Below, one piece after another: positions 247 through 55,747 of a stretch of DNA of 64,000 nucleotides (its first letter is position 1; each line of letters starts with the position of its first letter). The notes under the pieces were generated by a model. That model made no database searches. It saw only the letters and a program-made list of their open reading frames with translations, and was not told where the DNA came from. The DNA is from Martelella sp. HB161492 (GTDB lineage Bacteria > Pseudomonadota > Alphaproteobacteria > Rhizobiales > Rhizobiaceae). The stretch spans positions 1 through 64,000 of the forward strand of contig NZ_JAATVV010000018.1 of NCBI RefSeq assembly GCF_013184775.1, read 5' to 3'. Made by a program: the position numbers and the translations under genes.

Positions 247-255
247 TTATCAACG

Positions 256-308
256 TGATGGGAATGGAGCTTCCCGATAACCGCCTTGTTGCTGATAGCT
301 CCTGCTGG
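256..308 (+). promoter_or_regulatory. Fluoride riboswitch (crcB motif) aptamer, left copy
   Basis: The sequence fits the crcB-motif aptamer. A first stem GGGAA (260-264)/TTCCC (271-275) encloses TGGAGC. It is followed by ATAACCGCC and then GCTGATAGCTCC. The loop bases GGAGC (266-270) are exactly complementary to GCTCC (298-302), giving the diagnostic pseudoknot. Downstream genes include crcB and enolase, the canonical members of this regulon, so sequence and context agree. By analogy, fluoride binding turns the operon on. Confidence 0.92.
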
Positions 309-328
309 AAACGGACATCGATCCGTCT

Positions 329-368
329 GGCGGGGGTCGTGATTGCCCCCGCCGAGAGCGGGTTTTTT
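329..368 (+). terminator. Riboswitch expression platform: intrinsic terminator and competing hairpin
   Basis: Directly after the aptamer, CCCGC (348-352) pairs with GCGGG (358-362) across CGAGA and runs into TTTTTT (363-368), an intrinsic terminator. An overlapping stem GGCGGGGG (329-336)/CCCCCGCC (346-353) uses the same C-rich strand, so the two are mutually exclusive. A small ACGGA/TCCGT hairpin lies at 311-326. This architecture suggests control at transcription termination, about 90 bases before the first gene. Which fold forms with fluoride is inferred. Confidence 0.75.
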
Positions 369-460: not shown

Positions 461-898
461 ATGAGGGCGCTGCTGCAATCCTGGCAATTCTGGGCCGTGC
501 TTTCCGCAGCCTTCGCGGCGCTTACGGCGATTTTCGCCAAGGTCGGCGTTGAGGAAATCAATTCCGATTTTGCCACACTGATCCGCACGGTGGTGATTCT
601 GGCGGTTACCGCAGCGATCGTCTGGACCACCGGTCAGTGGCAGGCACCGGGGACGATTACGCCGCGCACCTACATATTTCTGATCCTCTCCGGCTGTGCG
701 ACAGGCGCCTCATGGCTCTGCTATTTTCGCGCGCTGAAGATCGGCGAGGCCGCCCGCGTCGCCCCGATCGACAAGCTGAGCGTCGTCATGGTTGCCGTCT
801 TTGCGGTCCTGTTTCTCGGCGAAAGGCTGACGCTGCCCAATTGGCTCGGCGTTGCGATGATCGGGGCGGGAGCGATCCTGATCGCATACAAGGCATGA
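461..898 (+). CDS. Half-size EamA/DMT-family membrane transporter
   Basis: A 145-residue protein with a single EamA unit and four predicted hydrophobic helices. It has the family's typical C-terminal RVAPIDKLSVVMVA and FLGERLTLPNWLGVAMI segments. Most DMT-superfamily transporters carry two such units; single-unit members are thought to work as dimers. The start is set by GGAGG five bases upstream. It is the first gene after the fluoride riboswitch and lies 12 bases from the stress-protein gene, so it is almost certainly in the fluoride operon. Its substrate is unknown; a role in ion or metabolite export under fluoride stress is inference. Confidence 0.85.
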   Translation: MRALLQSWQFWAVLSAAFAALTAIFAKVGVEEINSDFATLIRTVVILAVTAAIVWTTGQWQAPGTITPRTYIFLILSGCATGASWLCYFRALKIGEAARVAPIDKLSVVMVAVFAVLFLGERLTLPNWLGVAMIGAGAILIAYKA

Positions 899-910
899 GA
901 GGAGACCACC

Positions 911-1750
911 ATGAGCAGCATTGAAAGGCCGTCACCACACATCATTGTCGCGCTTCTGCCAGCGCCCGAGACGGTTTCCGCCTGCCTTGATTGTGCCAGG
1001 GCCGCAGCGGTGCCCTTCGACGCGCGGATTTCCGCAATTCATATCGGTTTCGATGCCGCCGCCGCCTTCGCCACACCGGAGGAGGTTGATATCCAGCAGC
1101 TTCGCGCCCTGGAGGAGGGATCGGCGCAAGAGCGTCGCAAGGCGGTGAAGGCCGCTTTGGACAGTTGGGCGGAGGACATAGGCAGCGCGCCTGCCGTCAC
1201 CTGGAAGGACGACGAGGGGAATGTCGGCGTTCTGGTCGCGGAAGAAACGCGTCGTGCCGATCTGGTGGTCATGGCCAATCCCGCCACGCTCGATGGTCGC
1301 GATGCCTTCCACAGTGTGTTGTTTCGCTCCCGGCGCCTGCTTCTGGTCGCACCGTCGTCGGCTTCGCCGCGACATACGGTCGTCGGTCGCAACATCGTCG
1401 TCGGCTGGAAGCCCGGCGCGCCGGTGGAGCGGGCTGCGGAAAACGCCCTGCCATGGCTGGCGAAAGCGGACAAGATATCGGTCGTCTGCGTCGAGACGGC
1501 CGGGCGGCGCGGCTATGCCGACAACGCACGGAACTGGTTCGACAAGGCGGGCCTGCGCGCCGACATTACCACAGTGACCAAGGGTGATGGCAGCGTTGGC
1601 CAGCAGCTCCTTGCCGAAGCCGAAAGGCTGGGCAGCGACAGCCTGCTGATTGGCGCCTTCAAACACGGCGAATTATGGGAAGCCATTCTGGGCGGCGTCA
1701 CACGGGATGTGCTGGCCGCCGCGCAGCTTCCCGTTTTCATGATGTGCTGA
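911..1750 (+). CDS. Universal stress protein, tandem UspA domains
   Basis: A 279-residue soluble protein with two consecutive UspA-like halves (about 10-145 and 155-279). The C-terminal half ends with the family-type LLIGAFKHGELWEAILGG and TRDVLAAAQLPVFMM segments. UspA proteins bind ATP or act as small stress regulators; the biochemical role here is unknown. GAGGAG six bases before ATG sets the start. It sits between the EamA gene and enolase in the fluoride-riboswitch operon. Stress proteins recur in fluoride operons, which fits general protection rather than transport. Confidence 0.88.
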   Translation: MSSIERPSPHIIVALLPAPETVSACLDCARAAAVPFDARISAIHIGFDAAAAFATPEEVDIQQLRALEEGSAQERRKAVKAALDSWAEDIGSAPAVTWKDDEGNVGVLVAEETRRADLVVMANPATLDGRDAFHSVLFRSRRLLLVAPSSASPRHTVVGRNIVVGWKPGAPVERAAENALPWLAKADKISVVCVETAGRRGYADNARNWFDKAGLRADITTVTKGDGSVGQQLLAEAERLGSDSLLIGAFKHGELWEAILGGVTRDVLAAAQLPVFMMC

Positions 1751-3109
<1,359 letters not shown>

Positions 3110-3153
3110 GGGTGTCCGGGCATTTGATCTCTCGCTTTTTCAGGGACAATTTT

Positions 3154-3543
3154 ATGGGCTATCTGCTTGTTTTTATAGGGGCCGGCGTCGGCGGCGCGTT
3201 GCGCCACGGTGTCAACATGGCCGCGACGAAGATGCTGGGCACGGGGCTTCCCTATGGCACGCTTGCCGTCAATATCATCGGCAGTCTGGTCATGGGGCTG
3301 GTCACGGAATACTGGTCGCTGAGAAGCGGCCTGCCTCAACCGGCGCGGCTTTTCATCACCACGGGCATGCTCGGCGGCTTCACCACCTTTTCGACCTTTT
3401 CGCTCGACACGGCAGTGCTTTTGGAGCGCGGCCAGCAACTGACCGCATTCGCCTATGCGGCAACGTCGATTGTGGTGTCGCTTGCCGCCCTGTTTGCCGG
3501 GCTGGCTTTCATGCGCCTGCTGCTGTCGCCGGCAAGTGTCTGA
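3154..3543 (+). CDS. crcB: Fluoride ion channel CrcB/Fluc
   Basis: A 129-residue, four-helix fluoride exporter that works as a dual-topology dimer in the inner membrane. Family motifs are visible: GGALRHG (13-19), the Asn40 and GS (43-44) segment, and GGFTTFSTF (74-82), which includes the Phe residues lining the pore and the central Na+ region. ATG 3154, preceded by AGGGA, gives the canonical start; an in-frame start at 3112 would add a non-conserved leader. It is the last gene of the EamA-Usp-eno-crcB operon and converges on the MutS-like pair with a 42-base gap. Confidence 0.95.
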   Translation: MGYLLVFIGAGVGGALRHGVNMAATKMLGTGLPYGTLAVNIIGSLVMGLVTEYWSLRSGLPQPARLFITTGMLGGFTTFSTFSLDTAVLLERGQQLTAFAYAATSIVVSLAALFAGLAFMRLLLSPASV

Positions 3544-3585: not shown

Positions 3586-5115
3586 TCAGGCCGGCTGCGT
3601 ATCTGCATCTTGCGGAAAGATCGCGTCGTAGAGGTCCGCGCCATAGCTGGTCGCCAGCGGCTCGCCTTCCGTCAGGCGGAAGCTGCGGCGACCTTCATCA
3701 TCGCGTTCGGCCCTCAGAAAGATTGCCGGCCGCGGTGGTTCCTGTCGCAGGCTTTCGGCAAGCTCGAACATGTGGGTGACGAAGAAGACTTTCGATACCT
3801 GCTGCAAAAGCGCCTCGACGATCTGCCGGGCGATCTCCGATCCCTCGCGCTCGTTCGTCGAGGCGAAGCTTTCGTTGAAAAGCACCAGCGCGCGCGGCGC
3901 GATCAGATCGATCAGGGTCGACATGCGGGTCAGCTCCTCATCGAACTTGCCGCTGCCCATCTCAGCATCCTCCTCTCGTTTGTAATGGGTGAAGACACCC
4001 GAAACGATGTTTGCGGTAAAATTCTCGGCCGCGACGAACATGCCACTCTGCAGCATCAGCTGCGCCAGCCCGACGCTGCGCAGGAAGGTGGACTTGCCGC
4101 CCTGGTTCGCGCCGGTGATCACGGCCAGACGCTTGCCCAGTGCTTCGATCGTGTTGCCGCCGATGGCCTTTTTCAGCTCGAGGGCGAGACAGACGTCATA
4201 GAGCGCGCGGCATGAAAACGCATCGTCCTCGATTGGGGCAGGATCCGGCTGGCAAACGGCGCAATTAAGCTGCTGCAGGGTTTCCCGAAGATTGAGGCAG
4301 CCGATATAGAAGGCAAGCTCGGCGCGCATGGTTTCGATAAAGCGCATGACATGGGTTACTGCTTCGCCGAGAGCAGCGGCGGCGATGGCAAGGCCGTGAT
4401 CGCGCAGGCGCGAAAGCGCCTGGAAACCGGCATCGTCCCGGGGCGGAAGCTGAAAGCTGTAGGTATCCGCTCCCTTGTCCAGAACCCAGTCCGCCGCCTG
4501 TTTCAGCCAGCCGGGCCGCGGCGGCGGTTTGCGCAATGTATAATTGCTTCCCTTGTTGCCGGCGCCGAGCTCCGCGCTGATCAGAACACCGCCGCGAAAC
4601 CCCAACCGCTTGAGGTGATCCTCGATCACGGCGAAATAGTCGTCGTCGAGTTGCGTGAGCAGGGAAGAAAACGCGGTACTGAAACCTTCCGACACGAAAG
4701 CGTTTCTATTGCTTTCGACGTGCGCGCGCATGCGCTTCAGCACCTCGAGAACGACCTTGAGCACCTCGATCGAGCGGTGAAGGACAGCCTCTGGCGAATC
4801 GCGAAAAATGCCGACATGAATATGCTTTTCCTTTTCAAGCGCCTCGCCCGCCAGCGCAAAGATCTGTCGGATGGCCGACGCGGTCCGGTCGTTGCAGTCG
4901 GCGAGGATTTGCTGGCGATAGCGGATTTCCTCGACCGTTGTCGGCGCGGCGGTCAGGACAACGTGCCGCGCGATATCTTCCACGAAAGGGTCGCCATCTG
5001 CCATGGTCTGAAAAAGCGTTTCGAGCCCCAGATCCTCCGTCAGACTGGCTGCGTTGGCACACAGATCGGCCTTGAAGTTGAAATTCCGGTCTCTGTGCAG
5101 GAGAAAGGCCTTCAT
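3586..5115 (-). CDS. MutS-like ATPase, second of a fluoride-controlled pair
   Basis: A 509-residue protein with a C-terminal MutS domain V ABC-type ATPase and a helical lever/clamp-like N-terminal half, but no mismatch-recognition domain I. The Walker A is GANQGGKST (335-343; MutS consensus is GPNMGGKST). The Walker B region reads VLFNES with Asn414-Glu415 instead of Asp-Glu, followed by FAST. A switch-like FFVTHMFELA comes near 444-453. It overlaps the upstream paralogue by ATGA, implying translational coupling and perhaps a heterodimer. MutS-family genes are a known but unexplained part of crcB-motif regulons. Its length (canonical MutS is about 850) argues against ordinary mismatch repair. 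Confidence 0.85.
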   Translation of the reverse strand: MKAFLLHRDRNFNFKADLCANAASLTEDLGLETLFQTMADGDPFVEDIARHVVLTAAPTTVEEIRYRQQILADCNDRTASAIRQIFALAGEALEKEKHIHVGIFRDSPEAVLHRSIEVLKVVLEVLKRMRAHVESNRNAFVSEGFSTAFSSLLTQLDDDYFAVIEDHLKRLGFRGGVLISAELGAGNKGSNYTLRKPPPRPGWLKQAADWVLDKGADTYSFQLPPRDDAGFQALSRLRDHGLAIAAAALGEAVTHVMRFIETMRAELAFYIGCLNLRETLQQLNCAVCQPDPAPIEDDAFSCRALYDVCLALELKKAIGGNTIEALGKRLAVITGANQGGKSTFLRSVGLAQLMLQSGMFVAAENFTANIVSGVFTHYKREEDAEMGSGKFDEELTRMSTLIDLIAPRALVLFNESFASTNEREGSEIARQIVEALLQQVSKVFFVTHMFELAESLRQEPPRPAIFLRAERDDEGRRSFRLTEGEPLATSYGADLYDAIFPQDADTQPA

Positions 5116-6752
5116 GTCCTCATCCTTTCACGCAGGGCGTTCGGGGTGAGCCGGTGTTTTTCGGCGATCGCCATAGCATAGGCATGACCGTCGGCGGGAC
5201 GACGCAGGATCTTGTATGTGCGTTCGGACGGATCGTCCGGGTCGACGGCGCTGACCATGCTAACGGTCGCCGGTCCGAGCCGCGACAATTCATCGATGAA
5301 GGTGACGCAGACGGCGCGCGCGCCGAGCGCCTCGATCTTTTCAAGAATGCGGGTGCCGAGAAAAAGCGCATCACGCAGCGTGGTTGAGGTGAATATCTCG
5401 TTCATGATGATGATGCTGTCGCCAGTGGCATTGGCGAGAATCTCGTGGATGCGCTCGAGATCGTCCTGGAGCTTGCCTTTGAGGTCGTGAATATCTTCCT
5501 GCCGCTCGAAATGGGTAAAGACGCTGTCGAACCGGGCAAGCCTGGCCCGTTTGCCGGGAACAGGCAGCCCCAGTCCCGCAAGATAATGCAATTGCCCGAA
5601 CATACGGGCGAAGGTTGTCTTACCGCCCTGATTGGGACCGGAGACGACGAAAATACGCTCCGCGCGCTCCAGAAAGAAGTCATTGGCAATGACCGGCCTT
5701 TTGTCTTGCGTCAGCTTGCGTGCCAGCACGATGTCAAAAGCGCCCTCAGCCGAAATCCCTTCGGATCGTTCCGCCAGTTTCGGATAGCAGAAGTCGAGCC
5801 CGGCGCGGCGCAACGGTGCGATATAGTCGATATAGGCGACGTAAAATTGCAATTCGCGTTCGAAGCGGACGAGCATGGGATGCACCAGATCGCGGCGGCT
5901 GGCGAAGAATTGCTCCAGCGCATCGAAGACTGCCGGGTAAAGATGACGCACGCCATCAAGGATGCCGGCTTCAACATGATCCATTTCGAAAGAGTCTTGC
6001 GTGGAAAATTTCGGAACTTCGGCCTCCGCAAGCCGGAACCGTTTGAATATTTCCAGGATTTCGGCGCTGTAATCCTCCTCGTTGGAATACCGGGCCACAG
6101 TGACAGTGTCGCCCCGGATCAGGACGCTGTATCGCACGGCGCCGAGCTGCGCCTGCAAGCTTTCGATATCGGCGCGCAGCTGCCGGAATTCCTCCGAGCC
6201 GGTATAGCCGGCCAGGAAATCGGCGAATGCCGAAAGCCCTTCCGATTGAAGTGTCGCCGCTGAAAGTCCTTTCGCGAGGGCGTCGACCATCCTGCCATAA
6301 ATATCCGCTGTTTCGAGGAACAGCGCTGTCTTTTGATGCAGATAGCGAAGCTTTTCGATACGATCGAACTTGTCGCGAATATTGGTCATCCCGCTCATCA
6401 AGGCCCGTGCAAGGGGCAGGATTTTCTCTCGCTCCAGATCCTTCATCACGCGCTGGCGGAAATATGCCGTCTCGGGTGAAACCGGCCCCGCTCGCAGCAC
6501 CGCATCGAGGTGAAAGCGCATGCGTCCGGATGTCAGACTATGTTCGAACTGGTCGAAATTGATGTCATGAAAGCAGGCCGGCATTGCGGCGGTCACCACC
6601 GCCTCGGAACCATCCGGTTGCAGGATGCTGAGCTTATGGCCCAACCCCTTCTCTGTGCCGGAACCACGCCCAGCGCCCGTCATTTCGCCGGATGGCTGCC
6701 CGTCCTGTTTTCCATCCGACAGCTTGCAGGAAATTCCACTTTCTTCCGCCAT
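5112..6752 (-). CDS. MutS-like ATPase, first gene behind the right fluoride riboswitch
   Basis: A 546-residue paralogue of the downstream gene. The N-terminal half includes a lever-like helical segment (ALMSGMTNIRDKFDRIEKLR). The ATPase follows, with Walker A GPNQGGKTT (about 372-380) and a Walker B-like IIIMNEIFTST in which Asn451 replaces the usual Asp before Glu452. No domain I is seen. The frame remains open to 6821, but that would translate through the aptamer. ATG 6752 has AAGGA nine bases upstream and lies just after the riboswitch, so I use it. It probably works with the overlapping paralogue. Substrate and role in fluoride stress are unknown. Confidence 0.86.
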   Translation of the reverse strand: MAEESGISCKLSDGKQDGQPSGEMTGAGRGSGTEKGLGHKLSILQPDGSEAVVTAAMPACFHDINFDQFEHSLTSGRMRFHLDAVLRAGPVSPETAYFRQRVMKDLEREKILPLARALMSGMTNIRDKFDRIEKLRYLHQKTALFLETADIYGRMVDALAKGLSAATLQSEGLSAFADFLAGYTGSEEFRQLRADIESLQAQLGAVRYSVLIRGDTVTVARYSNEEDYSAEILEIFKRFRLAEAEVPKFSTQDSFEMDHVEAGILDGVRHLYPAVFDALEQFFASRRDLVHPMLVRFERELQFYVAYIDYIAPLRRAGLDFCYPKLAERSEGISAEGAFDIVLARKLTQDKRPVIANDFFLERAERIFVVSGPNQGGKTTFARMFGQLHYLAGLGLPVPGKRARLARFDSVFTHFERQEDIHDLKGKLQDDLERIHEILANATGDSIIIMNEIFTSTTLRDALFLGTRILEKIEALGARAVCVTFIDELSRLGPATVSMVSAVDPDDPSERTYKILRRPADGHAYAMAIAEKHRLTPNALRERMRT

Positions 6753-6778
6753 GACGAATCCTTCTCTCGTGAGAACCA
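6753..6778 (-). promoter_or_regulatory. Translational expression platform of the right riboswitch
   Basis: Read on the minus strand, the aptamer is followed at once by TTCTC-ACGA-GAGAA and then GGATTCGTC-ATG. The hairpin's 3' arm overlaps the Shine-Dalgarno sequence AGAAGGA of the MutS-like gene. No T-run is present. This suggests control of ribosome access, unlike the left riboswitch, which has a terminator. The switching mechanism is inferred. Confidence 0.6.
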
Positions 6779-6826
6779 GAGGAGTCATCAGCCGGTCGTG
6801 GCGGTTAAGGGCGAACTCCATCGCCT
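6779..6826 (-). promoter_or_regulatory. Fluoride riboswitch (crcB motif) aptamer, right copy
   Basis: On the minus strand the sequence reads GGCGATGGAGTTCGCC, then TTAACCGCC, then GGCTGATGACTCC. It is a near-consensus crcB motif: stem GGCG/CGCC, the conserved AACCGCC and CTGATGACTCC blocks, and pseudoknot GGAG/CTCC. It ends about 27 bases before the start of the first MutS-like gene. Together with the left copy it places both halves of the island under fluoride control. Confidence 0.95.
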
Positions 6827-7213
6827 ATAGGTTTTTAGGTAAGCTCTTCGTCTGCGATTTCAATAGTCGGGCTTTATGGATAATCTTTGATTTCCGGTGG
6901 TCCTCTGTGCCAATTGATCAAGCCGTTCTCGCAGCTGCCCACATTTGGCGGCACCAAGCCCCATGCGTCCGCCAAGGGCATGGGGCAACTGCGGCCAGAG
7001 AAGGCTTTCGCGTTCCGCCCCCACTTCCTCGTCATTCTGACGGCCCCGGATGACACGATGCCCAAGAGCAAAGCGTTGCGCTTTCGATCGGGCTGTCGGC
7101 CTGTCATCTGCCAGCAAGGCCTGGCCAGCTGGTGCGCCCCGGCCCCGAAATCGCATGTGCTTTCCGGGCCGGGGCATGATCTGGCGATGCCGCGGCATCA
7201 GCGCCGTTTCGGT
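6827..7213. other. Intergenic stretch without a convincing gene
   Basis: About 390 bases between the right riboswitch and the solute-binding protein gene. It must hold the minus-strand promoter for the MutS-like pair; a weak TTGAAA box lies near 6860 with no good -10. Short overlapping frames are open on both strands but none has a start with a ribosome site or a recognisable product. A strong hairpin lies at 7136-7175. Confidence 0.5.
7136..7175 (-). terminator. Strong hairpin downstream of the solute-binding protein gene
   Basis: Arms GCCCCGGCCC (7136-7145) and GGGCCGGGGC (7166-7175) are perfectly complementary. The stem continues with GAAA/TTTC after one mismatch. It lies 38 bases past the stop codon of the minus-strand binding-protein gene. 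There is no T-run, so it may be a Rho-coupled terminator or an mRNA 3'-end stabiliser. Confidence 0.5.
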
Positions 7214-8882: not shown

Positions 8883-10031
8883 TCAGGCGACGCGGTTGTT
8901 CTCGATGACGTCGAAATTGATATCCTCACCAAGGCCGGGTCGATCCGGGACATGGACATAACCGTCTGCATCCATCGGGTCGGACAGGGCATTCAGATAG
9001 TCAAAGCCGTCATCATATTCGAGGAAGGGATGCAGGAGGCCGCGCTCATACCATTTGCTGGCCTTTGATGCCGCGACCACATGGAGGTTCATCGCCGTGT
9101 TGCCATGGACTTCACAGGCAATCCCGAAGCTTTCGGCCAGATGCATGGTTTTCATGGCAGGCGTGATGCCGCCGACATCATTGACCCCGGTCCGCAGGAT
9201 ATCGCATGCCCCGGACGTGATCCATTCTGCGCGGTGCCAGTGCTTGCCGGCCGCACTTTCCGGACCGACAACCGGGATATCGAGATTGTCCGCAAGCCAG
9301 CGATAAGAGGACATCGACTGTTCGTCCATCGGCTCCTCAATCCAGGCAAAGCCGAGTTTTTCGAGGCCCCGGCCAAGCGCCAGCGCATCAACGCGGGAAT
9401 ACCAGTGGAAGGCGTCGATCATCAGTTCGATGTCGGGACCAACCGCCTCGCGCACCGCGGCGCAGGCCTTCAGATCCATCTTCACATCCGGCGCCCAGCT
9501 GACTGGCGGCATCCAGGTGTGCAGCTTGATGCCCTTATAGCCGCGCGCGACCAGTTTTTCGGCGAAACGGCCATAATCTTCCGGCGTGGCGAGCCCGCCC
9601 TCAAGCTCATCGCCGCACATGATCGAGCCATAGGCCAGAACCTTGTCGCGATAGCCGCCAATCAGCTTGTAGACCGGCTGGCCGAGCATCCGGCCGGCCA
9701 GATCCCACAGGGCGCAGTCGACCACGGCAAGCGTGCGATCGGTGAGCTGGGCGGCCGAGCCGCGCTGCCAGTGGGCGAGATCCTGCCACAGCTTTTCGCG
9801 GTTGCGGCAATCCTGGCCGATCAGCACCTTGCGAACGAATTTATCCAGCACATGCGGGCGCACCACTTCCGGCGGGCAGAAGCTGTAGCCGCTATGGCCG
9901 TCCTCGGTGGTGATCGTCACCATGGCCTGCTGGACGAAATGTTCAGGGCCCGGATGGCCGTGCCCGGCGCTGTCACTGTGGCGCCTCGTCTTGTGTTTGA
10001 ATACGCTAACCGAAACATCCGTAATGATCAC
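8883..10031 (-). CDS. Enolase-superfamily (mandelate racemase group) dehydratase or racemase
   Basis: A 382-residue TIM-barrel enzyme acting on an acid sugar by proton abstraction next to a carboxylate. Metal ligands are Asp206 (MIDAFHW), Glu232 (WIEEPMDE) and Glu258 (VVGPES). The base dyad is Asp285 (GVNDVGG) and His309 (EVHGNTAM). The second-strand motif is K-L-H (169-171) rather than the usual KxK. The start is GTG 10031, preceded by GGGAAGGAAC. It is divergent from a FadR-type regulator and upstream of the binding protein. With garL and garR nearby, a sugar-acid dehydratase is likely; the exact substrate cannot be read from the sequence. Confidence 0.88.
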   Translation of the reverse strand: MIITDVSVSVFKHKTRRHSDSAGHGHPGPEHFVQQAMVTITTEDGHSGYSFCPPEVVRPHVLDKFVRKVLIGQDCRNREKLWQDLAHWQRGSAAQLTDRTLAVVDCALWDLAGRMLGQPVYKLIGGYRDKVLAYGSIMCGDELEGGLATPEDYGRFAEKLVARGYKGIKLHTWMPPVSWAPDVKMDLKACAAVREAVGPDIELMIDAFHWYSRVDALALGRGLEKLGFAWIEEPMDEQSMSSYRWLADNLDIPVVGPESAAGKHWHRAEWITSGACDILRTGVNDVGGITPAMKTMHLAESFGIACEVHGNTAMNLHVVAASKASKWYERGLLHPFLEYDDGFDYLNALSDPMDADGYVHVPDRPGLGEDINFDVIENNRVA

Positions 10032-10099
10032 GGCCGGTTCCTTCCCTGGCTTCCTCCGACCGTGAACCCATTCTGATGGAGCTGTCGGTCGCTGATAAT

Positions 10100-10136
10100 C
10101 TGTATAATAACTTTGTATGATAAATATGCTATACAG
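10100..10136. promoter_or_regulatory. Candidate operator for the GntR regulator in the divergent promoter
   Basis: CTGTATA (10100-10106) and TATACAG (10130-10136) form an inverted repeat around an AT-rich centre containing TTGTATGATAAATATG. It lies in the 235-base gap between the enolase-superfamily gene and the regulator. A closely similar CTGTAT...ATACAG arrangement precedes the ABC operon at 26919. Regulation by the adjacent regulator is inferred. Confidence 0.5.
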
Positions 10137-10266
10137 GTCAACAGGCAAAGCGCATGATCTGCGCCAAGCCATGCATAAAAACCAGCATGTTCATCGCGAT
10201 ATGGATTTGTCCGCCGCATCTATGCTAAACAGACATATTACACAGACGGGGTTCACCGAGGCCTGA

Positions 10267-11013
10267 ATGACCGATACCGAGACGCTGAAACCTGCCAAGA
10301 CCGTATCGACACGCACGCGTGTCAGTGAGATTGCCGACGATCTGCGCCGCGGCATCGAGGCCGGACGATTTCGTCCCGGCGACCGGCTGCCAAGCGAATC
10401 GGAGCTGACGCGACAGCATGCCGTCAGCCGCACCGTCGTGCGCGAGGCCTTTGCGCTTCTGCGCACCGAAGGTCTGGTGGAAGCGCGCAAGGGCTCGGGC
10501 GTCTTTGCCCTGGACCCCGCCAAGGCCGAACGCCGCCGTCCCTTTGCCGATCTCGACATGGAGCGGCTGTCTGGCGTGATCGAACTGTTCGAGCTGCGCA
10601 GTGCCTTTGAAATCGCTGCTGCCGGTCTTGCTGCCGGCCGTCGTTCCGCTGCCCAGATCGACGCCATCGTCAAGGCGCATGAGGATGTCGTTCAGTGTTT
10701 CAGGGACGGGCGATCACCGCGCGAAGCGGATTTCGCTTTCCATTATTCCATCGCCCAGGCGTCGCAAAACAAGCGCTTTCCCGAATTCCTGTCGCTGATC
10801 CGCCCCGGCATCGTGCCGCGGGTCGAGCTTGAGGCACATGACGGTGCGCCGCGGCCCTATGTGCCGAACCCGCAAATGGTGGCCGAGCATGAACGGATCG
10901 TTGATGCGATCATCGAGGGCAATGTGGCGGAAGCCGAAGCGGCGATGAAGGTTCATCTTGAGGGCAGTCTCGGGCGCTACCGCGCCATGCTGAAAAGCGG
11001 CCGGCAGAACTGA
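10267..11013 (+). CDS. GntR/FadR-family (FCD) transcriptional regulator
   Basis: A 248-residue DNA-binding protein. An N-terminal winged helix (about 17-85; RLPSESELTRQHAVSRTVVREAF) is followed by the all-helical FCD ligand domain (about 95-235), whose metal-binding His residues include those in FHYSIAQAS and MKVHLEGSL. FCD regulators usually sense acids such as uronates or lactate. GAGG upstream supports ATG 10267. It is divergent from the sugar-acid gene, which it probably controls, and may also act on the ABC operon at 26870. Its 3' end forms part of a convergent terminator with garR. Confidence 0.92.
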   Translation: MTDTETLKPAKTVSTRTRVSEIADDLRRGIEAGRFRPGDRLPSESELTRQHAVSRTVVREAFALLRTEGLVEARKGSGVFALDPAKAERRRPFADLDMERLSGVIELFELRSAFEIAAAGLAAGRRSAAQIDAIVKAHEDVVQCFRDGRSPREADFAFHYSIAQASQNKRFPEFLSLIRPGIVPRVELEAHDGAPRPYVPNPQMVAEHERIVDAIIEGNVAEAEAAMKVHLEGSLGRYRAMLKSGRQN

Positions 11014-54976: not shown

Positions 54977-55747
54977 TCAGACCGTTTTTATGTCCGTATT
55001 GTCAGCGCATACGGACGTTTCGGCCATCGCCTTCCTGAGCGCACGCACCGCGCCCGCATCGGTTTCACGCGGGCGCGGTGCGGTAAAACCGGCAAGCGGC
55101 AGAGGCTCTGTCGCGGCAGCCCGGCTGCAGGAGCTGTGCAGCTCGACGATGCCGGGAATGGCCAGAAAGGATGCGGCATTTTCAGCGGTGACGCCACCAC
55201 CCGGCATCAGCGACACCCGACCTTCCGCACGCGCTGCAAGCCGCGCGATCAGCGCGATCCCGGCAGGCGCCGTCGGTGCCTGGCCAGATGTCAGGATCCG
55301 GCCGATGCCGAGCGCCATCGCCATGTCCATCGCCGCATCGGGGTCTGTTGTCAGATCGAAAGCACGATGCAGCGTGATGTCGAGATCGCCGGCGGCGGCA
55401 ACAAGCCGCGCCATTGCCGTCCGGTCAAGCCGTCGGCCAGCATCAAGCGCCCCGATCACCACACCGGCAGCGCCGGCAGCCCGGCAAAAGGCAATGTCGT
55501 CGCACATGATCGCCAGCTCGTTCGCGTCGTAACAGAAACCGCCGGCGCGCGGACGGATCAGAACATTGACCGGCAACCTTGTCTTGGCGGCCAGGGTGAT
55601 GAAACCCGGCGAGGGCGTCAGCCCGCCGCAATCCAGAGCGGCGCAGAGCTCGATCCGGTCAGCCCCGCTGCGGATGGCCACATCCAGTCCCGCAGCATTT
55701 TCCACACAGACTTCCAGCCGGAAAGGATCGTTGGGTCTCTCTGTCAT
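54977..55747 (-). CDS. cutC: CutC family protein
   Basis: A 256-residue TIM-barrel protein with LEVCVENAAGLDVAIRSGADRIELCAALDCGGLTPS at the N-terminus (key run RIELCAALDCGGLTPS), VNVLIRPRAGGFCY, LHRAFDLTTDPDAAM and MPGGGVTAENA. CutC was named for copper homeostasis, but that role is doubtful; in rhizobia it often sits in amino-sugar clusters (recalled). Its ATG overlaps the TGA of a truncated upstream gene, which shows it was once translationally coupled to a gene now missing. Confidence 0.93.
   Translation of the reverse strand: MTERPNDPFRLEVCVENAAGLDVAIRSGADRIELCAALDCGGLTPSPGFITLAAKTRLPVNVLIRPRAGGFCYDANELAIMCDDIAFCRAAGAAGVVIGALDAGRRLDRTAMARLVAAAGDLDITLHRAFDLTTDPDAAMDMAMALGIGRILTSGQAPTAPAGIALIARLAARAEGRVSLMPGGGVTAENAASFLAIPGIVELHSSCSRAAATEPLPLAGFTAPRPRETDAGAVRALRKAMAETSVCADNTDIKTV

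Follow-up and report, generated by a model that had tools for sequence, protein, structure and literature searches.

The window analysed here is a stretch of 64,000 nucleotides (positions 1-64,000 of contig NZ_JAATVV010000018.1, Martelella sp. HB161492, assembly GCF_013184775.1), and it carries two overlapping genes, gene 1 and gene 2, that encode MutS-like ATPases and are preceded by a fluoride riboswitch. By computation we found that each gene forms a clade of its own outside the MutS1 and MutS2 families, that both products are reduced to the same domain content and have altered ATP-site motifs, that the genes nearly always overlap by four nucleotides and are fused in one genome, and that a fluoride riboswitch accompanies the pair in many phyla. 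The presence of a 'mutS' in the crcB regulon was already known (PMC2864571). The new observation is that gene 1 has lost the H-loop histidine and gene 2 has retained it, and the pair represents a variant of the MutS-fold ATPases with a clear regulatory context. Our tentative reading, possible rather than probable, is that the two products form an obligate asymmetric heterodimer, a fluoride-induced accessory tolerance machine that would remodel fluoride-jammed complexes and would not serve mismatch repair. The pair has the following features:

5112..6752, minus strand: gene 1, MutS-like ATPase subunit 1 (open reading frame of 546 amino acids with ATG at 6752; MutS_V domain; AF2 model)
3586..5115, minus strand: gene 2, MutS-like ATPase subunit 2 (open reading frame of 509 amino acids; MutS_V domain; AF2 model)
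5112-5115, minus strand: ATGA overlap of gene 1 and gene 2 (reading-frame coordinates)
5616..5639, minus strand: gene 1 Walker A GPNQGGKT, residues 372-379 (coordinates computed from the reading frame)
5397..5402, minus strand: gene 1 Walker B Asn451-Glu452 (alignment)
5298..5300, minus strand: gene 1 Phe485 at the place of the H-loop (switch) histidine (alignment column)
4090..4113, minus strand: gene 2 Walker A GANQGGKS, residues 335-342 (coordinates computed from the reading frame)
3871..3876, minus strand: gene 2 Walker B Asn414-Glu415 (alignment)
3772..3774, minus strand: gene 2 H-loop His448, kept (alignment)
6772..6834, minus strand: fluoride riboswitch aptamer (RF01734) upstream of the pair (Rfam, 52.1 bits)
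6752..6790, minus strand: possible translational switch from the aptamer 3' end to the start codon (minimum-energy fold)

An earlier note on this DNA, made from the sequence alone, had placed a MutS-like pair with an ATGA overlap at 3586-6752 and had described it as lacking the mismatch-binding domain. The reading frames bear out the coordinates and the overlap. A Pfam scan gave MutS_V as the sole family over the cut-off in both proteins (E 4e-16 and 2e-23; 83.6 and 59.9 bits against a curated cut-off of 30.2), and neither the mismatch-recognition domain I nor the connector domain II was matched in either of them. The AF2 models (mean pLDDT 82.6 for gene 1, with residues 1-41 below 50, and 84.3 for gene 2) begin with core/lever helices, and both proteins comprise the core/lever and ATPase parts of MutS only. 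When these models were compared with solved structures by Foldseek, all 50 matches shown for each model were MutS, MSH or MutS2 chains, solved MutS2 structures were among the best matches of both, and the alignments spanned nearly the whole model. The query TM-scores (0.38-0.61) were moderate and the root-mean-square deviations (8-19 Å) large, but hinged molecules can give such values. From the MutS_V scores and these folds it can be seen that both proteins belong to the MutS-fold ATPase superfamily.

The ATP-site motifs read GPNQGGKT and MNEIFTST in gene 1 and GANQGGKS and FNESFAST in gene 2, that is, a MutS-type Walker A is combined with Asn-Glu in Walker B, as the earlier note had stated. 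In a family alignment of 194 rows (184 distinct sequences, since five loci were fetched twice; truncated rows were dropped), Asn-Glu was found in 193 rows and 183 of the distinct sequences, which is beyond chance; the lone exception, gene 2 of locus L032, has Asp-Glu. The Gln that follows GxN in Walker A is present in both window proteins, but it is less strict across the family (173/194 rows, 164/184 distinct sequences). The H-loop histidine contacts the gamma-phosphate in ABC ATPases. Its column holds Phe or Leu in all 94 gene-1 rows and His in all 100 gene-2 rows. In the final count the gene labels are themselves based on this column, which also decided the four rows whose Walker A is odd (L050, L068, L109, L201); profile scores agree for the first three. 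This loss had been missed in the earlier note. Because the histidine is lost in gene 1 only, we predict an asymmetric dimer in which one ATP site is degraded and the other nearly complete, so that at most one is complete. Judged by its motifs, gene 1 is the more degenerate subunit, and gene 2, in which the Walker B Glu and the H-loop His are both intact, may hydrolyse ATP. The slow hydrolysis proposed before for the pair is likewise only a reading of the motifs.

Our locus set comprised 88 pair loci: the window, seven plasmid loci and 80 genome loci, the latter being the best-scoring of at least 535 stretches in species genomes that encode a relative, with a lean to close relatives of gene 2. 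They come from many phyla and include many metagenome bins. An exact four-nucleotide overlap of the two genes was observed in 81 of the 85 complete pair loci (74 ATGA, 6 GTGA, 1 TTGA), and in Pannonibacter carbonis (L030, 9143-12322) a single reading frame of 1059 amino acids holds gene 1 and gene 2. The overlap and the fusion support an obligate heterodimer, although they do not prove it.

The link to fluoride control that had been claimed for the window extends across phyla. Rfam reported a fluoride riboswitch in 7/7 plasmid loci and in the 7/7 closest of the best 80 genome loci. With a home-made model (R1, built from 36 riboswitch sites, two of them in the window), riboswitches were found at 22 bits or more in 71 of the 88 loci and at 34 bits or more in 65. 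The corresponding numbers were 58 and 52 for the 75 loci outside the training set, and 63 and 58 for the 69 loci of at least 9 kb. In 45/88 loci the riboswitch immediately precedes gene 1, on its strand and at most 600 nucleotides away. As controls, 32 short non-pair MutS loci (124 kb versus 1.45 Mb of pair loci) gave a best R1 score of 11.4 bits, and 14 overlapping loci of relatives (L134, L177, L210-L221) one of 12.0 bits. In an even sample of 299 genomes of the Thermoanaerobacter phylum, searched with the relative L177, 14 genomes carried gene-1/gene-2 types; the locus riboswitch scored at least 35 bits in nine of them, was weak (22-25 bits) in two and was absent from three. Within the Thermoanaerobacter class gene 2 occurs in 14/37 genomes and riboswitches in 36/37 (35 over the cut-off). 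Since riboswitches are nearly everywhere in this class, their position and not their presence carries the signal, and by coordinates a riboswitch stands just before gene 1 in 12 of the 14 gene-2 genomes (one below the Rfam cut-off). A sample of 299 Pseudomonadota contained the pair in two genomes, one of them the present one, both with a riboswitch, and riboswitches over the cut-off in 41. Co-occurrence at the genome level has little power.

This linkage bears on the reading that the pair is a hitch-hiker, a remodeller for stress in general that fluoride islands have picked up and that in reality acts on a substrate unrelated to fluoride. Some pairs and many related proteins do occur without a fluoride riboswitch, some of them beside glycosidase-like genes, as would be expected of such a passenger, but the riboswitch position directly before gene 1 in about half of the loci and its presence in every plasmid locus make this explanation quite improbable.

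In the window, the pair aptamer ends 19 nucleotides before the ATG of gene 1, and its Rfam score compares with a gathering score of 34; with R1, whose training set includes this aptamer, it reached 62.5 bits. By this aptamer the pair is a putative member of the fluoride-riboswitch regulon. The minimum-energy fold of the leader joins two stretches at the 3' end of the aptamer, UGAUGA and UCCU, to UCGUCA and AGGA, and this pairing covers the ribosome-binding site together with the first base of the start codon. Compared with shuffled sequences, the 108-nucleotide leader folds weakly better (z -1.68, 11/200), and the 56-nucleotide piece that holds the pairing no better (z 0.13, 104/200). It is possible from this fold that fluoride would free translation of the pair via a leader switch. 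A search of the whole genome with Rfam reported two fluoride riboswitches, this one and one at 251-311 of the window. A further site at 55257-55331 (minus strand) scored 23.5 bits with a home-made riboswitch model, was absent from the Rfam report and is probably a chance match.

To place the proteins among their relatives, we calculated trees from which the Walker and H-loop trait columns had been removed. In the first tree, each of the two genes was represented by 28 rows and formed one clade (100/100) inside a 69-row group (100/99) apart from MutS1, MutS2, KamC and MutS-like proteins of about 600 amino acids. Two further trees (68 and 71 rows) gave the same result at 100/100; the relatives L134/L177, absent from the first tree, were added to these, and two long-branched relatives, L218 and a second protein of L216, were not included. 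Long branches join where the 69-row group separates from the others, and the bootstraps are not fully settled. For gene 1 and gene 2 as one joint clade, the approximately unbiased test gave p 0.49. The pair is therefore not nested in the sampled MutS1 or MutS2 clades. Such nesting, or a lack of co-occurrence with fluoride genes elsewhere, was what the earlier note had named as speaking against its proposal, and neither was observed.

Comparison of the protein families points in the same direction. Like MutS2, the pair has a core/lever region and an ABC-type ATPase fold and lacks mismatch and connector domains. Unlike MutS2, it consists of two genes, has Asn-Glu in Walker B and mostly Gln (MutS2: Thr) in Walker A, lacks the H-loop His in gene 1, falls into another clade and has no KOW/SMR tail. 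The proteins end about 175 residues past Walker A, compared with a median of 455 in 13 MutS2 rows. We rejected membership in MutS2, since the scores of 57-68 bits stay below the equivalog cut-off of 400 and the KOW/SMR C-terminal part is lacking. With MutS1 and MSH proteins the pair shares the domain V ATPase and the lever fold, and MSH pairs are heterodimers with unequal sites. However, domains I and II are lacking, and the Met and Asp-Glu of MutS1/MSH are changed to Gln and Asn-Glu, with their His replaced by Phe in gene 1 but kept in gene 2. Membership in MutS1 mismatch repair was rejected on this domain loss and on a score of about 78 bits against the equivalog cut-off of 480. The best NCBIfam match of gene 2 was KamC (NF052383), the lysine 5,6-aminomutase reactivase ATPase, which like the pair proteins is a MutS-fold ATPase of about 500 amino acids. 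KamC was also rejected, as the two proteins scored 84.8 (gene 2) and 40 bits against a cut-off of 300, and the single true KamC row (L110) groups with MutS2 on a long branch. The reading frame before KamC in L110, presumably KamB, has no MutS motif. For a defence system, PADLOC returned nothing for gene 1 and only weak P-loop matches for gene 2, and we discarded this candidate.

Asn-Glu in Walker B is by the motif comparison not a fluoride mark. The 69-row group has other members, from a spirochaete bin and Clostridia-like genomes, and they carry either Asn-Glu or Asp-Glu. Asp-Glu was found in L210, L211, L212, L215 and L219, so that some of the nearer relatives of the pair do have the ordinary motif. 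Asn-Glu relatives without any riboswitch above 12 bits in the locus DNA were found in L134/L177, L212, L213, L214, L216, L217, L218 and L221, and these had escaped the earlier note as well. Because relatives without a fluoride riboswitch share Asn-Glu, the motif is not fluoride-specific. The dedicated clade of fluoride-linked Asn-Glu pairs proposed before holds insofar as each gene forms one clade, but the view that Asn-Glu defines the fluoride system is not supported, given these relatives and two pairs, L230 and L231, that are described below. Some group relatives are themselves paired beside glycosidase-like genes without a riboswitch in the locus DNA. In one branch (L213:2693-5769, L216:8148-11221, L217:125-1648, L221:3656-6720), the MutS-like genes are mostly paired and have no fluoride riboswitch; in L213, L216 and L217 it adjoins a protein of about 1035 amino acids (weakly rhamnosidase-like in L216) and genes that by eye are fucosidase-like.

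The Walker B change might also be read as a fluoride adaptation. In such a fluoride-proof ATPase, the Asn would weaken magnesium binding and avoid an ADP-magnesium-fluoride trap, and the pair would replace a housekeeping function lost under fluoride. The near-invariance of Asn-Glu in the family fits this idea, and the same change has a solved structure (E. coli MutS D693N, 3k0s, by the title of a Foldseek match), for which weaker metal binding is reportedly seen. The riboswitch-less Asn-Glu relatives weaken it, and we know of no housekeeping protein of this architecture that the pair could replace. We consider this explanation very improbable.

Our preferred reading, the remodelling heterodimer, would work as follows. 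Fluoride would stabilise the leader riboswitch, upon which the pair would be made, and the two products would assemble with two lever arms on a shared two-site ATPase. The nearly complete gene-2 site would drive the cycle, and the degenerate gene-1 site, with its Walker B Asn and without the H-loop His, would be structural or regulatory. ATP binding and release would open and close the arms, as a lever or a clamp, on a target that the arm tip of gene 2 would hold. Most likely, the heterodimer would pry apart or remodel complexes, of protein or of ribonucleoprotein, that fluoride-metal-phosphate has jammed; candidate targets are poisoned enzymes or ribosomes. We favour this remodelling because MutS2, which is recruited by its KOW and SMR domains, needs ATP hydrolysis to split disomes and collided ribosomes (PMC10897456), because KamC is named a reactivase, because enolase and pyrophosphatase are inhibited by fluoride (PMC11139923) and because removal of eno-uspA-ppaC lowers the fluoride tolerance of Enterobacter cloacae FRM (PMC5533749). 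The heterodimer might also act as a fluoride reactivase, gripping enzymes poisoned by fluoride-magnesium-phosphate and expelling the inhibitor with ATP; enolase, pyrophosphatase, phosphoglycerate mutase or trapped NTPases would be the candidates. This proposal appears doubtful to us, and to our knowledge no such repair activity for fluoride has been described.

The putative contact region, the arm tip, is basic in gene 2 (mean charge +4.8, standard deviation 2.9, compared with +2.0 in MutS1 and +2.3 in MutS2) and near neutral (-0.8) in gene 1, where the hairpin has a conservation of 0.59. A basic tip would be in line with a nucleic-acid repair clamp, a reduced MutS that would mark, for other proteins, the sites at which DNA or RNA is damaged or stalled under fluoride stress. 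The MutS fold of both models fits this alternative, and the mutS of the crcB-motif regulon was originally read as DNA repair (PMC2864571); we infer that this gene is the present pair. Nevertheless, we regard the clamp as unlikely: a mismatch-recognition or connector domain is lacking, the trees set the pair away from MutS1 and MutS2, and no mutL or nuclease was found among the named neighbour clusters (28 clusters recur; 10 representatives were scanned, 8 of which matched a family), where no search was aimed at mutL.

The same basic tip would suit ribosome rescue, in which the pair splits ribosomes jammed by translation GTPases trapped with fluoride and metal, as MutS2 does on collided ribosomes. 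Fluoride-metal complexes may trap translation GTPases in this way. The core-lever-ATPase part with which MutS2 splits disomes by ATP hydrolysis (PMC10897456) is shared by the pair, MutS2 structures are among the best fold matches, and the gene 1 search found no MutS2 in this genome, so the pair could fill that place. However, the pair lacks KOW and SMR, the recruiting domains of MutS2, and, by frame length, a protein of MutS2 size is also encoded in 18 of 28 genomes with the pair. Taken together, ribosome rescue appears rather unlikely.

Several observations weigh against the remodelling heterodimer. The basic gene-2 tip would equally suit DNA, RNA or ribosomes. Its hairpin (GVLISAxLGxGNxGxxYxLRK, conservation 0.68) is only as conserved as gene 2 as a whole (0.67). 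The first lever and N-core have values of 0.62-0.64, but the second lever, at 0.75, and the first ATPase part, at 0.83, exceed the hairpin. Conservation at the average level of the protein fits a specific target, but as weak evidence. KamC has Asp-Glu and branches elsewhere, which makes it a precedent by analogy only. Locus L106 contains gene 2 (9170-10723) but no detectable gene 1, with 9 kb upstream covered. Riboswitches were seen near this solitary gene 2. No riboswitch was found in 17 of the 88 loci, six of which are at least 9 kb long. The Clostridia-like pairs L230 (3369-6384) and L231 (3474-6508) have neither a riboswitch nor a recognisable fluoride gene in 10 kb. Their genes 2 (rows L198, L199) branch first among 29 gene-2 rows, whereas their genes 1 nest within 30 gene-1 rows, so that the two subunits disagree on placement; these pairs are either ancestral or have departed from the fluoride setting. 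Finally, the neighbouring genes mostly belong to the usual fluoride regulon, so no partner is singled out.

Among 101 genomes (this one and 100 relatives up to the order), 96 matched gene 1 at E 1e-8 or better, but the pair was present in just one, Martelella sp. HB161492 itself. The matches in the other genomes are long MutS frames, mostly of about 900-1000 amino acids, with E values no better than 1e-15. This confinement suggests that the pair was probably acquired. When we searched 72,556 plasmid records, 86 matched gene 1 and 106 gene 2 (Klebsiella 20 and 22 of them), and at least 80% of the genes was covered in 44 and 46 records, respectively. Seven plasmid loci were inspected; in the six that are annotated, the genes near the pair include some of the following: crcB, eno, gpmA, ppaC, ppa, usp, Na+/H+ antiporter, MFS and DUF190. 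Carriers include Enterobacteriaceae plasmids such as L023 (Klebsiella, NZ_CP084857.1), H5, H21 and others; the L023 plasmid is typed conjugative and has a ppaC-usp-eno-gpm-crcB block near the pair. Both pair genes of L023 are annotated 'DNA mismatch repair protein MutS', a kind of label that probably misleads for the pairs on these plasmids. By megablast, DNA closely related to the Klebsiella pair was found in 1/5426 complete E. coli genomes, and the RefSeq E. coli record names both genes 'MutS-related protein'. Of 50,697 phage records, 24 matched gene 2 partly and none over 80%.

In the window, the pair faces a convergent tolerance operon, in which the EamA, Usp, enolase and CrcB genes run toward it:

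251..311, plus strand: second fluoride riboswitch, before the operon (Rfam, 43.5 bits)
348..362, plus strand: terminator-like hairpin with T-run behind the second aptamer (pattern scan)
461..898, plus strand: EamA-domain membrane protein (Pfam)
911..1750, plus strand: universal stress protein, Usp (Pfam)
1838..3109, plus strand: enolase, eno (Pfam; NCBIfam 644 bits, over the cut-off)
3112..3543, plus strand: CrcB/Fluc fluoride exporter (Pfam and NCBIfam, over the cut-off)

The second aptamer is possibly a transcriptional switch; the terminator-like pattern gave 10 sites in 7.3 kb, where 7.6 were expected, and the hairpin is weak evidence alone. Neighbour counts over the 88 loci were obtained by BLAST with queries taken from some of these loci. 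Enolase was found near the pair in 26 loci (10 within 300 nucleotides), MFS in 21, DUF190 in 20, CrcB in 19, Usp in 15, hydrogenase/complex-I-like subunits in 12-15, a gpm-type phosphatase in 14, a Na+/H+ exchanger in 13 and ppa in 6. The recurrent DUF190 proteins belong to COG1993 (e.g. L062:1997-2413, L027:6160-6480). A dynamin-family GTPase accompanies the pair in 20 loci (8 within 300 nucleotides; e.g. L105:8050-9402, L027:12326-14443) and is not named as a neighbour in the accessible parts of the fluoride papers cited here. L229:53-1903, outside this count, is dynamin-like by eye only.

The neighbours and the control correspond to those of the known fluoride-riboswitch regulon (crcB, eno, ppaC, gpmA, usp), for instance on GI3 of E. 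cloacae FRM. In contrast, the Table 1 stretch of the FRM resistance operon contains no MutS gene, and the accessible part of that paper gives no role for a MutS pair (PMC5533749). Within the open-access literature searched, there was no paper on the pair and none joining 'fluoride riboswitch' and 'MutS'.

Taken together, these data indicate that the fluoride-regulon 'mutS', unexplained since its listing in 2010 (PMC2864571), is in the loci studied neither MutS1 nor MutS2. Here it is a branch of two genes, distinguished by altered ATP sites, and it occurs across many phyla and also on plasmids from human-associated bacteria. If poisoned enzymes or ribosomes are the target, fluoride tolerance would comprise active repair in addition to export and the overproduction of enzymes, and a further role outside DNA would be added for the MutS fold. 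Should the reactivase proposal be true, this fold would be used on proteins rather than on nucleic acid.

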